Source of the DNA: Natronospira proteinivora
Lineage (GTDB): Bacteria; Pseudomonadota; Gammaproteobacteria; Natronospirales; Natronospiraceae
Direction of reading: 5' to 3'
NCBI RefSeq assembly: GCF_024170465.1
Contig: NZ_JALJYF010000001.1
Span: 1 to 64,000, forward strand
Length of the DNA: 64,000 nucleotides
How positions within the stretch are numbered: position 1 is the first letter of the stretch; every line of letters starts with the position of its first letter. Shown piece by piece: positions 14,429 through 59,746 of this stretch. The notes beneath the pieces were generated by a model. That model worked only from the letters and a program-made list of their open reading frames with translations, ran no database searches and was not told where the DNA came from. The position numbers were made by a program, and so were the translations under genes.

Positions 14429-14444
14429 GTTTTGATGCAAATCC

Positions 14445-14521
14445 GGGTCGAGGAGCGTTGCGACGGGTCAACCCGCCAGGCTCGACACAGGGATGCAATT
14501 GTAGGAACGGCGCTCGCTTCA
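14445..14521 (+). promoter_or_regulatory. S-adenosylhomocysteine (SAH) riboswitch
   Basis: The leader of ahcY matches the proteobacterial SAH riboswitch. Stem P1 pairs GTCGAG (14447-14452) with CTCGAC (14481-14486). The conserved GAGGAGCGTTGCGAC core follows, then a CGGGT/ACCCG hairpin and CCAGGCTCG. A pseudoknot forms between GAGCG (14453-14457) and CGCTC (14511-14515) inside the conserved AACGGCGCTCG. It ends 19 bases before the ahcY ATG, so SAH binding probably exposes the ribosome site and turns ahcY on. This class is known to sit before SAH-recycling genes. Confidence 0.93.
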
Positions 14522-14539
14522 GAACGATGGAGTTAAACT

Positions 14540-16019: not shown

Positions 16020-16096
16020 GTAGGAGCGGATTTATCCGCGAAGGCGTTCGGAGGCCGCGAGGCGTTCTAGTCAATCGCGGATAAATCCGCTCCTAC
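16020..16096. repeat. REP-like double-palindromic element
   Basis: Two perfect 22-bp inverted arms (16020-16041 and 16075-16096) begin GTAGGAGCGG. Each arm is itself palindromic (GCGGAT-TT-ATCCGC). The 33-bp spacer is GC rich. This layout, and the GTAGGAGCGG core, is that of extragenic REP/REPIN sequences of Pseudomonas and Xanthomonas relatives, which are moved by RAYT transposases. Located between ahcY and the thioesterase; no RAYT gene is in the window. Confidence 0.85.
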
Positions 16097-21921: not shown

Positions 21922-23124
21922 ATGACCATCCTCAAGATGACGGACCTGGATCTTCGCAATAAGCGCGTGTTGATTCGCGAGGATCTGAATGTGCCGGTCA
22001 AGGACGGCAAAGTCAGCAGTGATGCCCGGATTCGGGCTTCATTGCCCACCATCAAGGCCGCCCTGGAGGGCGGTGCCCGGATCATGCTCATGTCCCATCT
22101 GGGGCGACCCACCGAGGGTGAATATGACCCGGCCCAGTCCCTGGCGCCGGTGGCGGATCGCCTCACCGAGCTCCTGGGGCGCAAGGTACGCTTGGCTGAG
22201 GACTGGATCGACGGGGTGGACGTGGCTGAAGGCGAGGTGGTCCTGTGCGAAAACGTGCGATTCCTCAAGGGCGAGAAAGCCGATGATGAAGCACTGGCCC
22301 GGAAGATGGCCGCCCTCTGCGACATCTATGTGATGGATGCCTTCGGCACGGCCCATCGGGCCCAGGCCTCCACCCATGGGGTAGCCCGCTTTGCCCCGGT
22401 GGCCTGCGCCGGGCCGCTGCTGTCCCGGGAGCTGGATGCCCTGGGTCATGCCCTGGAGGACCCCAAACGCCCGCTGGTGGCGATTGTGGCCGGCTCCAAG
22501 GTGTCCACCAAGCTTACCGTGCTGGAAAGCCTCAGCAAGGTGGTGGATCGCCTGATCGTGGGGGGGGGCATTGCCAATACCTTCATCGCGGCTGCCGGTT
22601 ACGATGTGGGCAAGTCCTTGCACGAGCCGGATCTGATTCCCGAGGCCAAGCGGCTGATGGAGCAGGCCCGCGCCAAGGGCGGCGAGATTCCGGTGCCTAC
22701 GGATGTGGTGGTGGCCACGGAATTCGACGCCAGTGCCGAGGCGGATGTGAAGCCGGTGGATGAGATCACGGCCGACGAAATGGTGTTGGATATCGGCCCT
22801 GACACGGCCGAAGCCTTTGCCGGCAGCCTCAAGGAAGCCGGGACCATTGTCTGGAATGGGCCGGTGGGTGTGTTCGAGTTTGATCAATTCGGTCAGGGCA
22901 CACGCGTATTGGCCGAGGCCATTGCGGAGTCACCCGCATTTTCCATTGCCGGCGGTGGCGACACCCTGGCAGCCGTGGACAAGTACGGTATCGCCGATCA
23001 GGTTTCTTATATCTCCACGGGTGGGGGTGCCTTTTTGGAGTTCTTGGAAGGCAAGACCCTGCCGGCGGTGGCAGTGCTCGAAAGCCGGGCCAATGAGAAG
23101 GTGGCCGCAGGCAGTCAAGGCTGA
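21922..23124 (+). CDS. pgk: Phosphoglycerate kinase
   Basis: Transfers phosphate from 1,3-bisphosphoglycerate to ADP. The 400-aa two-domain protein shows [12 protein letters not shown] at the N terminus (substrate aspartate and asparagine), [39 protein letters not shown] and the C-terminal GGGDTLAAV with ATP contacts. GGAGG precedes the ATG by 8 bases. It ends in a strong terminator, which separates it from pyk. Confidence 0.98.
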
Positions 23125-23157: not shown

Positions 23158-23187
23158 AAAAACACCGCCTTCGGGCGGTGTTTTTTT
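23158..23187 (+). terminator. Intrinsic terminator after pgk
   Basis: The stem CACCGCC-TTCG-GGCGGTG (23163-23180) has a stable UUCG tetraloop, five A before it and seven T after it. Confidence 0.96.
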
Positions 23188-23266
23188 ATGCCATATAAAA
23201 ACCTGTCGTATTAGAGGCTTCTTCGAGGCTATCGCCTAGTAACCATAATAGCTGGAAACGACCAGC

Positions 23267-23448
23267 CCTCTATATCGGCAAAGTAATCGAAGCCAAAGCC
23301 GACTCATACCGACACTACTTTCAGTCTGGAGGATCGAGTACAGGGTGGAACTGGCCAGGGCTGTGCGCGACAGGGATGTCGCACCCAGAGCCCCAGGGAT
23401 GGGTCCATGCGTCCCTGGACAGTTCCACCCTGTACTTGAGCCGTGAAG
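23267..23448 (-). repeat. Structured repeat, copy 1
   Basis: Read on the minus strand it begins CTTCACGGCTC and ends near TAGAGG. Its outer stem is a perfect 15-bp pair (23339-23353 with 23420-23434), extended by CCAGGG/CCCTGG after one mismatch. Inside are CCAGGGA...TCCCTGG and a terminal hairpin with stem GCGACA/TGTCGC. The same order of blocks occurs in copy 2 on the opposite strand. The tail (23267-23300) is nearly identical to the tail of copy 2. Confidence 0.9.
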
Positions 23449-23641
23449 TTTAAACAGAAACCTATATCCTCAGCTGGCGGTAGCTTGAACGGTCCCGAAA
23501 ATGCTAATGAAAAACACTTTAAACGGACCCAGTTCGAACACGGTTCAGTGTTTCAATGGCTCAAACATCCAACAATGTCAGATTACAACCCTACGAGGAG
23601 ATTCACGCCTTGCCAGCCGAAGGGAGTGGACTGCTTTCAGA

Positions 23642-23826
23642 GCTTCACGGCTCGATCACAAGGTGGGATGTTCCAGGGACGCCGTGCACCCATCCCTGGG
23701 GGCTCTGACGAAAACATCCTGTTTTCGACAGCCCTGGAACATCCCACCTTGCGCTCGATCCTCCAGACTGAAAGCCGCGGAGGGGGTGAGCTGGCTTTGG
23801 CTTCGATTGCTTTGGCGATGTAGAGG
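23642..23826 (+). repeat. Structured repeat, copy 2 (inverted relative to copy 1)
   Basis: It starts GCTTCACGGCTC, then has a perfect 20-bp outer stem (23659-23678 with 23732-23751), the inner CCAGGGA...TCCCTGG, a terminal hairpin with stem CGAAAACA/TGTTTTCG around loop TCC (23709-23727), then CTCGATCCTCCAGACTGAAAG and a tail ending TAGAGG. Single-stranded and core blocks are conserved with copy 1, while both the outer and the terminal stem differ in sequence yet remain paired. Confidence 0.9.
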
Positions 23827-24013: not shown

Positions 24014-25450
24014 ATGAACGGTTTTCCTATGCCAAGAAGAACCAAGATTGTCGCCACCCTGGGTCCCGCGGTGGATTCGCCGGAACAAATGCTGGCGCTG
24101 GTAAAAGCCGGCGTGGACGTGGTGCGCATCAACTTTTCCCACGGCAGCGCCAGGGATCATGGCCGCTTGGTGGCCCTGGCCCGGGATGCCGCCGAACAGG
24201 CCGGACGAGACGTGGGCGTGTTGGCGGACCTTCAGGGGCCGAAGATTCGGATCGATGCCTTTGTTGATGGGGCGGTTGATCTCAAGGAAGGGCAAGCCTT
24301 CGCCCTGGACGCGGAGCTGGATCCCGCAGGCGGCGATGACACGGTGGTGGGTCTGACCTACAAGAACCTGCCGGTAGATGTTTTTCCGGGAGATGTTCTG
24401 CTCCTGGATGACGGCCTGATTGCCCTGCGGGTGGAATCCATCGACGGCAGCCGCATTCATACCCGCGTGGAAATGGGCGGCAAGCTGTCCAACCACAAGG
24501 GGATCAATCGCCAGGGGGGCGGCTTGTCGGCACCGGCTCTGACCGAAAAGGACCTGGAGGATATCAAGACCGCCGCCGAGCTGGATGTGGATTATCTGGC
24601 CCTGTCCTTTCCCCGTTCCGGTCAGGATGTGGACCAGGCCCGGCAATTGCTGCGGGATGCCGGTGGCCAGGGCGGGGTGGTGGCCAAGATTGAGCGCAGT
24701 GAAGCGGTCACCAATCTGGACGAGATTGTGGTGGCCAGTGATGCGGTGATGGTGGCGAGGGGTGATCTTGCGGTGGAGATCGGTGATGCCGAGCTGGCCG
24801 CGGTTCAAAAGATGATCATCCATCGGGCCCGGGAATTGAACCGGGTGGTAATCACCGCCACCCAGATGATGGAGTCCATGATCAATCAGCCGCGCCCCAC
24901 CCGGGCCGAGGTGCTGGATGTGGCCAATGCGGTGCTGGATGGGACCGATGCCGTCATGCTGTCGGCGGAGACCGCCACCGGGCAGTTTCCCATTCGGGTG
25001 GTGGAAGCCATGCATGGGGTTTGCGTGGGGGCTGAGAAGCAGCGCCGTACCCAGCGCTCCCGGCATCGCCTGGACAGTCGCTTTGAGCGGATTGACGAGG
25101 CGGTGGCCATGGCCGCCATGTATACCGCCAATCACCTGGAGACTCGTGCCATCGTCGCCATGACGGAATCCGGATCCACGCCACTGTGGATGTCCCGGAT
25201 TCGTTCCGGGATCCCAATCTATGCCTTGACCCGTCACCGGAGTACCCGCCGTCGGGTCACCCTCTATCGGGGGGTGTATCCGGTGGATTACGACATTCTC
25301 CATCATGACCCGAAACGCATTATCGAAGATGCTGTGCGAGTGCTTCGAGATATGGGCGCTGCCGAGGCCGGTGATCAGCTGATTTTCACCAAGGGGGATT
25401 TTGAAGGGGTGTCGGGCGGCACCAACGCCATGAAGATTGTGACTGCCTGA
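24014..25450 (+). CDS. pyk: Pyruvate kinase
   Basis: Last ATP-forming step of glycolysis, phosphoenolpyruvate to pyruvate. The 478-aa protein has RRTKIVATLGPA at the N terminus, VRINFSHGS, the ADP/Mg motif in LGVLADLQGPKIR-type sequence, the active-site loop VVAKIERSEAVTNLDEI with the catalytic lysine, VMVARGDLAVEIG and TATQMMESMI. The start may be ATG 24014 or ATG 24029; the second gives the usual short N terminus and neither has a clear Shine-Dalgarno. It is separated from pgk by the repeat island. No fba gene follows. Confidence 0.97.
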   Translation: MNGFPMPRRTKIVATLGPAVDSPEQMLALVKAGVDVVRINFSHGSARDHGRLVALARDAAEQAGRDVGVLADLQGPKIRIDAFVDGAVDLKEGQAFALDAELDPAGGDDTVVGLTYKNLPVDVFPGDVLLLDDGLIALRVESIDGSRIHTRVEMGGKLSNHKGINRQGGGLSAPALTEKDLEDIKTAAELDVDYLALSFPRSGQDVDQARQLLRDAGGQGGVVAKIERSEAVTNLDEIVVASDAVMVARGDLAVEIGDAELAAVQKMIIHRARELNRVVITATQMMESMINQPRPTRAEVLDVANAVLDGTDAVMLSAETATGQFPIRVVEAMHGVCVGAEKQRRTQRSRHRLDSRFERIDEAVAMAAMYTANHLETRAIVAMTESGSTPLWMSRIRSGIPIYALTRHRSTRRRVTLYRGVYPVDYDILHHDPKRIIEDAVRVLRDMGAAEAGDQLIFTKGDFEGVSGGTNAMKIVTA

Positions 25451-59361: not shown

Positions 59362-59730
59362 GGAGTCGACCGGGCGGTCGCGGTGGCCTTCGGGCCACGG
59401 AGGAAAGTCCGGGCTCCGCAGGGCAGGGTGCCAGGTAACGCCTGGGGGGCGTGAGCCCACGGAAAGTGCCGCAGAAAACAAACCGCCGATGGCCTCTTCC
59501 GAGGCACAGGCAAGGGTGAAAAGGTGCGGTAAGAGCGCACCGCGCGCCTGGCAACAGTGCGTGGCACGGTAAACCCCACCCGGAGCAAAGCCAAATAGGG
59601 GAACCAGTGCGCCTCGAGCGCACGACGTGCGGCCCGTACGTGTTCCCGGGTAGGCTGCTTGAGGCGGGTGGCGACACCCGTCCCAGAGGAATGACCGTCC
59701 TCGACAGAACCCGGCTTACAGGTCGACTCC
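59362..59730 (+). ncRNA. rnpB: RNase P RNA, bacterial type A
   Basis: The catalytic RNA that matures tRNA 5' ends. The terminal helix P1 pairs GGAGTCGAC (59362-59370) with GTCGACTCC (59722-59730). Conserved cores are GAGGAAAGTCCGGGCTC with CCGCAGGGCAGGGTGCC (CR-I region), GCAGAAAAC-type and GTAAACCCCACCCGGAGCAA (CR-IV), and CCAAATAGGGGAACC. About 369 nt, standard size. Between rsmI and mraZ as in Pseudomonas. Confidence 0.98.
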
Positions 59731-59746
59731 CGTTTCATCCAAGACC

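Follow-up and report, generated by a model that had tools for sequence, protein, structure and literature searches.

Inverted structured units with CsrA-type loops in a dispersed element between pgk and pyk of Natronospira proteinivora: a possible transposon-spread CsrA decoy

The element between pgk and pyk

The stretch of Natronospira proteinivora DNA analysed here (the window; 64,000 nt) carries pgk at 21922–23124 and pyk at 24014–25450, with a 560-bp repeat element in the gap between them. A preliminary description of this DNA placed two inverted copies of a repeat at 23267–23448 and 23642–23826, which are indeed present, and suggested that they split a glycolytic run. The position between pgk and pyk stands; the splitting does not, since the insertion lies behind the pgk terminator and leaves the gene order unbroken. 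The features of the locus are as follows, R1 being a covariance model described in the next section.

23158..23191, + strand: intrinsic terminator of pgk, an inverted repeat followed by a T-run, with the element directly behind it
23267..23826, unstranded: complete repeat element of 560 bp, its 40-nt ends 88% complementary; the genome has about 33 such places
23267..23826: terminal inverted repeats of the element, with ends CCTCTATATCGGCAAAG.../...CTTTGGCGATGTAGAGG
23337..23353, + strand: 5' arm of the unit A outer stem, 17 bp perfect, partner 23420–23436
23345..23428, + strand: structured unit A, full length by R1 (80.3 bits, E 3.6e-17); in the training set
23367..23382, + strand: hairpin 1 of unit A, GCGACAGGGATGTCGC, loop motif CAGGGATG (CANGGANG), from sequence, fold and loop statistics
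23392..23403, + strand: hairpin 2 of unit A, CCCAGGGATGGG, loop motif CAGGGATG, from sequence and loop statistics
23420..23436, + strand: 3' arm of the unit A outer stem, partner 23337–23353
23449..23642, unstranded: internal spacer between units A and B, poorly conserved among seven aligned full-length copies
23659..23678, - strand: one arm of the unit B outer stem, 20 bp perfect, partner 23732–23751
23663..23747, - strand: structured unit B, full length by R1 (88.7 bits, E 3.1e-19); outside the training set
23689..23700, - strand: hairpin 2 of unit B, CCCAGGGATGGG on the minus strand, from sequence and fold
23709..23727, - strand: hairpin 1 of unit B, CGAAAACAGGATGTTTTCG on the minus strand with a CAGGATG loop, from sequence and fold
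23732..23751, - strand: other arm of the unit B outer stem, partner 23659–23678

Unit B is inverted with respect to unit A, and a repeat search returned the inverted matches 23267–23306/23787–23826 (88%), 23318–23364/23728–23774 (83%) and 23409–23448/23643–23682 (80%). Perfect inverted repeats of ≥14 bp (loop <80) number only four in the 64-kb window, and both outer stems are among them. They had been given earlier as perfect over 15 and 20 bp; the longer was recovered as such, while the shorter measured 17 bp. The terminal hairpins, GCGACA/TGTCGC in one copy and CGAAAACA/TGTTTTCG in the other, are unlike in sequence and fully paired in each, just as had been reported. RNA folds of units A and B gave z = -7.8 and -8.4, and the whole 611-nt stretch treated as single-stranded DNA gave z = -14.6. 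An AnGGA motif is common to both hairpin loops of each unit. A consensus scan found no promoter inside the element, and Rfam returned no match at the element at gathering threshold. Elsewhere the window holds an SAH riboswitch (14444–14522, 58.6 bits) and an RNase P RNA of class A (59362–59734, 324 bits).

Repetition, structure and mobility of the unit family

BLAST with the 560-bp query gave 77 matches in this genome, which were merged by position, by hand, into about 33 places. Full-length copies are 74–80% identical, partial copies and single ends also occur, and in several other copies longer terminal inverted repeats (TCGTGGAATTCCG...) continue outward. An intrinsic terminator reads toward the copy within 150 nt in 7 of 19 copies, as against 1.2% of random placements, the latter falling across the window on intergenic and coding DNA alike.

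In two congeners (G001, G002) and a related genus (G003), it is chiefly the core of the unit that occurs. The pgk-pyk neighbourhood is kept in these three and in the more distant G004, and the gap, which spans 890 bp here, measures about 213–370 bp in G001–G003 and about 10 bp in G004; being much shorter in the relatives, it represents the site without the element. The preliminary description had proposed to look for empty sites in related strains; at pgk-pyk the element is absent from both congeners and the related genus. The window copy combines inverted terminal repeats with this element-free site in relatives; no target duplication was recognised for it or for the other copies in this genome.

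In each unit two short hairpins are enclosed by a long outer stem that is near-perfect, the constant part reading outer stem–CAGGGtGTC–hairpin 1–AAGCC/AGAGCC–hairpin 2–TTCACGGCGTCCCTG–outer stem. Model R1 was built from 46 units. Double changes occur in 22 of the 26 pairs of their alignment (306 cells vs 84 shuffled), and its covariation score is 0.655, compared with 0.171 when shuffled and at most 0.19 when slid. The alignment of 88 distinct further units, which was fitted to the model, has double changes in 23 of 26 pairs (811 cells vs 230 shuffled). Unit B was outside the training set yet scored 88.7 bits, which lends the model independent support. It had been proposed at the outset that a covariance model be used to search this genome and its relatives, and that copies should recur elsewhere with their stem changes paired. 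The search detected the unit in many genomes, copies recur both in this genome and in others, and the two alignments covary.

The distribution of the unit is broad within one class. Positives for R1 were 71 of 369 sampled gammaproteobacterial genomes, or 63 of 271 genera, usually with many copies per genome (survey counts are lower bounds and reach at least 11–12), while a draw of 398 genomes across the phylum gave 32 positives, all Gammaproteobacteria. A pattern scan of GTDB genomes found the unit in Aliidiomarina, Idiomarina, Pseudidiomarina, Rheinheimera, Alkalimonas and Arsukibacterium, as well as in Halorhodospira, Natronospira, Sedimenticola, Stenotrophomonas and others. With the window unit as query, no match was found in plasmids or phages. 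The Aliidiomarina-type core was found on two near-identical plasmids of Alphaproteobacteria and on one Shewanella plasmid; this core gave no match in phages, and none was found in 5,426 E. coli genomes. Plasmid units (L262:1500–1560 on pDCA of Ancylobacter; L263:1490–1560 on a Shewanella aestuarii plasmid) lie near ISAs1 and IS256 transposases, and the S. aestuarii unit has an A+T-rich outer stem with the apical core unchanged. Pattern matches in viral contigs lacked the structure and were dismissed as chance.

Genome G265 holds eight nearly identical, dispersed copies inside elements with the terminal inverted repeat (TIR) CAGCAATTCCCA and 9-bp target duplications, examples being TTATTGTTC, GGGTTCGGT and GTTAAATTG. 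The 11-base TIR end occurs there at 248 sites, compared with 1 for the reversed control. These copies have the characters by which MITEs are recognised, namely terminal inverted repeats, target site duplication and no coding capacity, and in several of them arrays of extra GGA hairpins, on the opposite strand, are nested in the hairpin-1 loop. The MITEs at loci L232, L243, L246, L250 and L255 measure 212–398 bp. The mobile-element reading of the preliminary description is upheld by the multiple copies, the free orthologous site in relatives and the MITE context with 9-bp duplications in G265, and we regard the family as almost certainly a repeat or mobile element.

The outer stems behave differently from the cores they enclose. 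Among 11 copies compared in genome G324, the core is 96% and the hairpin-1 stem 100% identical, while similarity in the outer stems of 26–32 bp and the flanks does not reach past the few innermost pairs (51% over 12 columns). Compensatory drift is an unlikely source of this pattern, as it would have altered hairpin 1 too. At pgk-pyk of G002 (L138) there is a perfect hairpin of 30-plus bp with the apex AACAGGGATGTT on the minus strand; its 5' arm matches the local family, hairpin 2 is missing, and the 3' arm reproduces the 5' arm exactly through hairpin 1. The plain pgk terminator of G001 (L139) has grown outward to form a perfect palindrome some 22 bp long (GCTCCCATACGAAAACACCGCC-TTCG-...) where relatives have a T-run, a natural case of outward palindrome extension. 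Self-templated copying of arms would explain the G324 stems, the rewritten arm of G002 and the palindrome of G001 alike, and locus-specific outer stems around common cores fit hairpin template switching as far as sequence comparison can indicate. The preliminary description had attributed the retention of shape to selection or to template switching; the stem patterns agree with arm correction, the mechanism being one that we infer. On balance, we lean towards the view that the outer stems are rebuilt by arm copying. If this is true, shape would be passed on without stem sequence. The pattern of unique perfect stems around a common core opens hairpin template switching to direct tests in natural genomes.

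Loop motif, RNA-level signal and proposed role

Both hairpin loops read CANGGANG, the recognition consensus of RsmE/CsrA, with both N positions free. Counts over the 88 distinct units are C85 A85 N G88 G87 A88 N G82 for hairpin 1 and C87 A88 N G88 G88 A88 N G88 for hairpin 2; model R1 itself rewards this consensus, and the units collected without it are the BLAST-derived ones of this genome (both hairpins) and, for hairpin 1, the pattern-derived set. The RsmE consensus has been given as A/UCANGGANGU/A, quoted from Schubert et al. 2007 (PMC6849547). For CsrA, high affinity goes with an ANGGAN hexaloop, RUACARGGAUGU was obtained by SELEX, and the repeats of CsrB read CAGGA(U/A/C)G (PMC7652899), a form shared by the Natronospira-type hairpin 1 loops CAGGATG and CAGGACG. 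The distance from GGA to GGA is 20 nt in unit A and 19–21 nt in 87 units, and a CsrA dimer bridges sites 10–63 nt apart with an optimum of >18 (PMC7652899). ANGGAN loop, C-G closure and sites 10–63 nt apart, the sequence criteria for a CsrA-binding RNA, are all found in the units. Two observations count against a CsrA reading: hairpin 1 often has 5–7 bp of G-C, where CsrA SELEX ligands have mostly weak stems (PMC7652899), and GGA hairpins of the opposite strand are nested in hairpin 1 in G265. The CsrA of this genome has L4 and R44. Among well-assembled genomes, CsrA is present in 57 of 58 family-positive and 223 of 256 family-negative ones (p = 0.009); as CsrA is very common and genome reduction confounds the comparison, this co-occurrence is weak evidence. 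We judge from the sequences that the units probably bind CsrA.

A second line of evidence concerns the strand. In stems chosen by Watson-Crick pairs only, mismatches on the AnGGA strand comprise 51 G-U and 10 A-C pairs, the ratio being 26:1 among the non-independent copies of this genome and 25:9 elsewhere (p = 0.009). Such asymmetry is expected of an RNA and not of a DNA palindrome, so the bias points to selection at the RNA level, which likely acts on the units. Together with the strong covariation, it bears out the reading as a structured RNA family, which the preliminary description had offered as an alternative to a mobile element; the two readings are supported together.

The genomic context is less directional. 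Convergent genes flank 21 of 53 classified units, gene 3' ends are preferred, and orientation is mixed, with 29 units sense and 24 antisense to the upstream gene (gene calls followed a simple longest-ORF rule; 22 units lying in ORFs that are probably spurious were excluded). A role confined to sense 3'UTRs was rejected, as gene orientation lends it no support. In six genomes of Rheinheimera, Arsukibacterium and Alkalimonas, a unit forms a conserved island of the intergenic region behind the same gene, which from its protein sequence we take to be ilvD. About 100 columns are nearly invariant within an otherwise diverged region; those that vary are the free N positions in the loops and positions of hairpin 1, where the changes are paired. 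Judged by this conservation, the unit at its fixed site behind ilvD is under constraint across three genera.

Three other explanations may be weighed against these data. Decayed insertion sequence remnants, whose paired stems reflect chance or homogenisation of inverted repeats rather than selection, were already disfavoured and we consider them highly implausible. The copies here are old (74–80% identity), many are truncated, and arm correction alone can keep stems perfect; homogenisation nevertheless leaves unexplained the conservation of CANGGANG in both loops with its free Ns, the many genera, the G-U excess and the ilvD site.

A locally acting structured RNA that stabilises or terminates mRNA 3' ends, with GGA loops serving a non-CsrA protein or tertiary contacts, is in our view improbable. 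It would draw on the position at gene 3' ends, the very stable stems and the conserved site behind ilvD, and YPAL elements have been reported to alter how stable upstream transcripts are (PMC2229807). No U-tract follows the outer stem, however, the sense of the upstream gene is not preferred (29 vs 24), and loop and spacing fit CsrA specifically.

More serious, if still unlikely, is a purely selfish DNA repeat of MITE or REP-like kind, whose transposase recognises single-stranded or cruciform hairpins and the loop motif and whose RNA has no role. The clear MITE of G265 with its TIR and 9-bp duplications, the many copies favouring gene 3' ends and convergent genes (21/53) as REPs and YPAL do, and the nested insertions in hairpin loops are all in keeping with it. 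It does not predict a motif that is exactly CANGGANG with free N positions at a fixed spacing of 19–21 nt, nor a strand-specific excess of G-U over A-C, nor a unit kept at one site across genera. Moreover, the unit occurs inside and outside the TIR context of G265 and is therefore not the end recognised by that transposase, and the single Y1 (RAYT) transposase that this genome encodes has GTAG REPs at its flanks, which are unrelated to the unit.

The explanation we prefer, with reasonable though not high confidence, is that the element is a non-autonomous MITE-like repeat of CsrA-site units that serves as a CsrA sink or tether and has arm-copied stems. Two inverted structured units would make up one interspersed element. 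In RNA of the AnGGA strand, two short hairpins with CANGGANG loops would cap a long outer stem, at a spacing that would let a single CsrA/RsmA dimer hold the pair. With the units in inverted orientation, one complete unit would be read whichever side transcription comes from. Transcription would arise mainly by read-through at gene 3' ends, and copies in this genome, being often behind terminators, may be little transcribed. Once transcribed, the units would capture CsrA, serving either as a weak, dispersed sink or as CsrA-tethered 3' ends. Transposition would spread the copies, selection would maintain the apical core, and hairpin template switching, with one arm templating the other, would preserve the perfect outer stem and renew it out of local sequence.

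Sink function is the weakest of these steps, and we advance it tentatively. More speculative again is the combined proposal of a distributed, transposon-spread sponge with dual CsrA sites that tunes a global regulator, each copy gaining a fresh locus-specific stem by hairpin-primed copying of its flank. CsrA ranks among the chief post-transcriptional regulators of Gammaproteobacteria. The element may be a transposon-spread CsrA decoy; if so, the CsrA network would be under an unrecognised load, or receive an unrecognised input, from the dozens of mobile dual-site modules in a genome, and this would be a clear example of transposons carrying a regulatory RNA decoy.

Comparison with known systems

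Among Rfam families the closest in anatomy is TwoAYGGAY (RF01731), which has two adjacent hairpins with AYGGAY loops, an outer stem, and a CGG then a GCGUC segment; the units likewise have two neighbouring GGA-loop hairpins within an outer stem. They align end to end to RF01731 at 26–35 bits (best 34.8, window unit 26.3), all scanned units lying below its gathering threshold of 43 bits. A whole-genome search with RF01731 gave no match, as did the positive control for the family. Gardner and Eldai proposed from motif matches that TwoAYGGAY binds CsrA (PMC4333381). The second hairpin is much shorter in the units, which also occur in multiple copies in Gammaproteobacteria and, in one genome, are carried by MITEs, whereas TwoAYGGAY is not described as dispersed or mobile in the literature we found. 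The units probably work like TwoAYGGAY and are its distant kin, to judge from these alignments. In Oceanococcus (L129:67–123, minus strand) another hairpin pair, with loops CCACGGATGG and GACAGGAAGTC, stands beside a unit and scores 43.6 bits, above the TwoAYGGAY threshold.

The reverse strand of Ysr224 (RF02770), a Yersinia sRNA, has the same order of parts: a hairpin with an AGGGAU loop, a GAGCC linker, a CATGGATG hairpin and an outer stem. Matches to RF02770 fall exactly on units of several genomes, on the antisense strand, at 22–33 bits. The difference is that Rfam models the strand opposite to the AnGGA strand of the units, and the threshold of 70 is missed. If our reading is true, it would provide a common explanation for the weakly supported TwoAYGGAY and Ysr224 families. 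A further Rfam match, to the Vibrio antisense RNA V_AS9, lies outside Vibrio in Aliidiomarina sanyensis (L085:3347–3450, 55.5 bits).

Two groups of mobile palindromes also resemble the element. YPAL/RU-2 of Yersinia comprises mobile palindromes of about 168 bp with internal inverted repeats, at or near dyad symmetries; the comparison is by description only, and the account consulted mentions no CsrA motif (PMC2229807). The GTAG and CGTC REPs (Di Nocera et al. 2013, PMC3733652) share dispersed intergenic palindromes at gene 3' ends, frequent head-to-head pairs and paired variation of stems. Membership in the GTAG REP/RAYT system was rejected, the units having no GTAG tag and the RAYT of this genome being flanked by GTAGGAGCGGAT-type REPs; mobilisation by RAYT was likewise set aside, since its flanks hold this separate GTAG REP family. 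Nor do the units, by their anatomy, belong to the CGTC REPs, which are marked by a CGTC tag, an 8–9 bp A/T-started stem and a CCA tail (PMC3733652). A GTAG-type REP pair does occur in the window at 16020–16096 (GTAGGAGCGGATTTATCCGCGA, 22-bp perfect arms, 33-nt spacer), and the same REP type flanks the single RAYT of the genome (G000:C2:423060–423386).

The unit core sequence was not found in the published literature searched, and a mobile, dispersed CsrA-site element appears undescribed in the literature we found. The nearest functional counterparts would be the sponge RNAs CsrB, CsrC and RsmX/Y/Z, which have GGA hairpin loops of the same consensus and would sequester CsrA in the same manner. 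They differ in being regulated sRNAs from single loci with many sites, whereas the units offer two sites each in dozens of dispersed copies.
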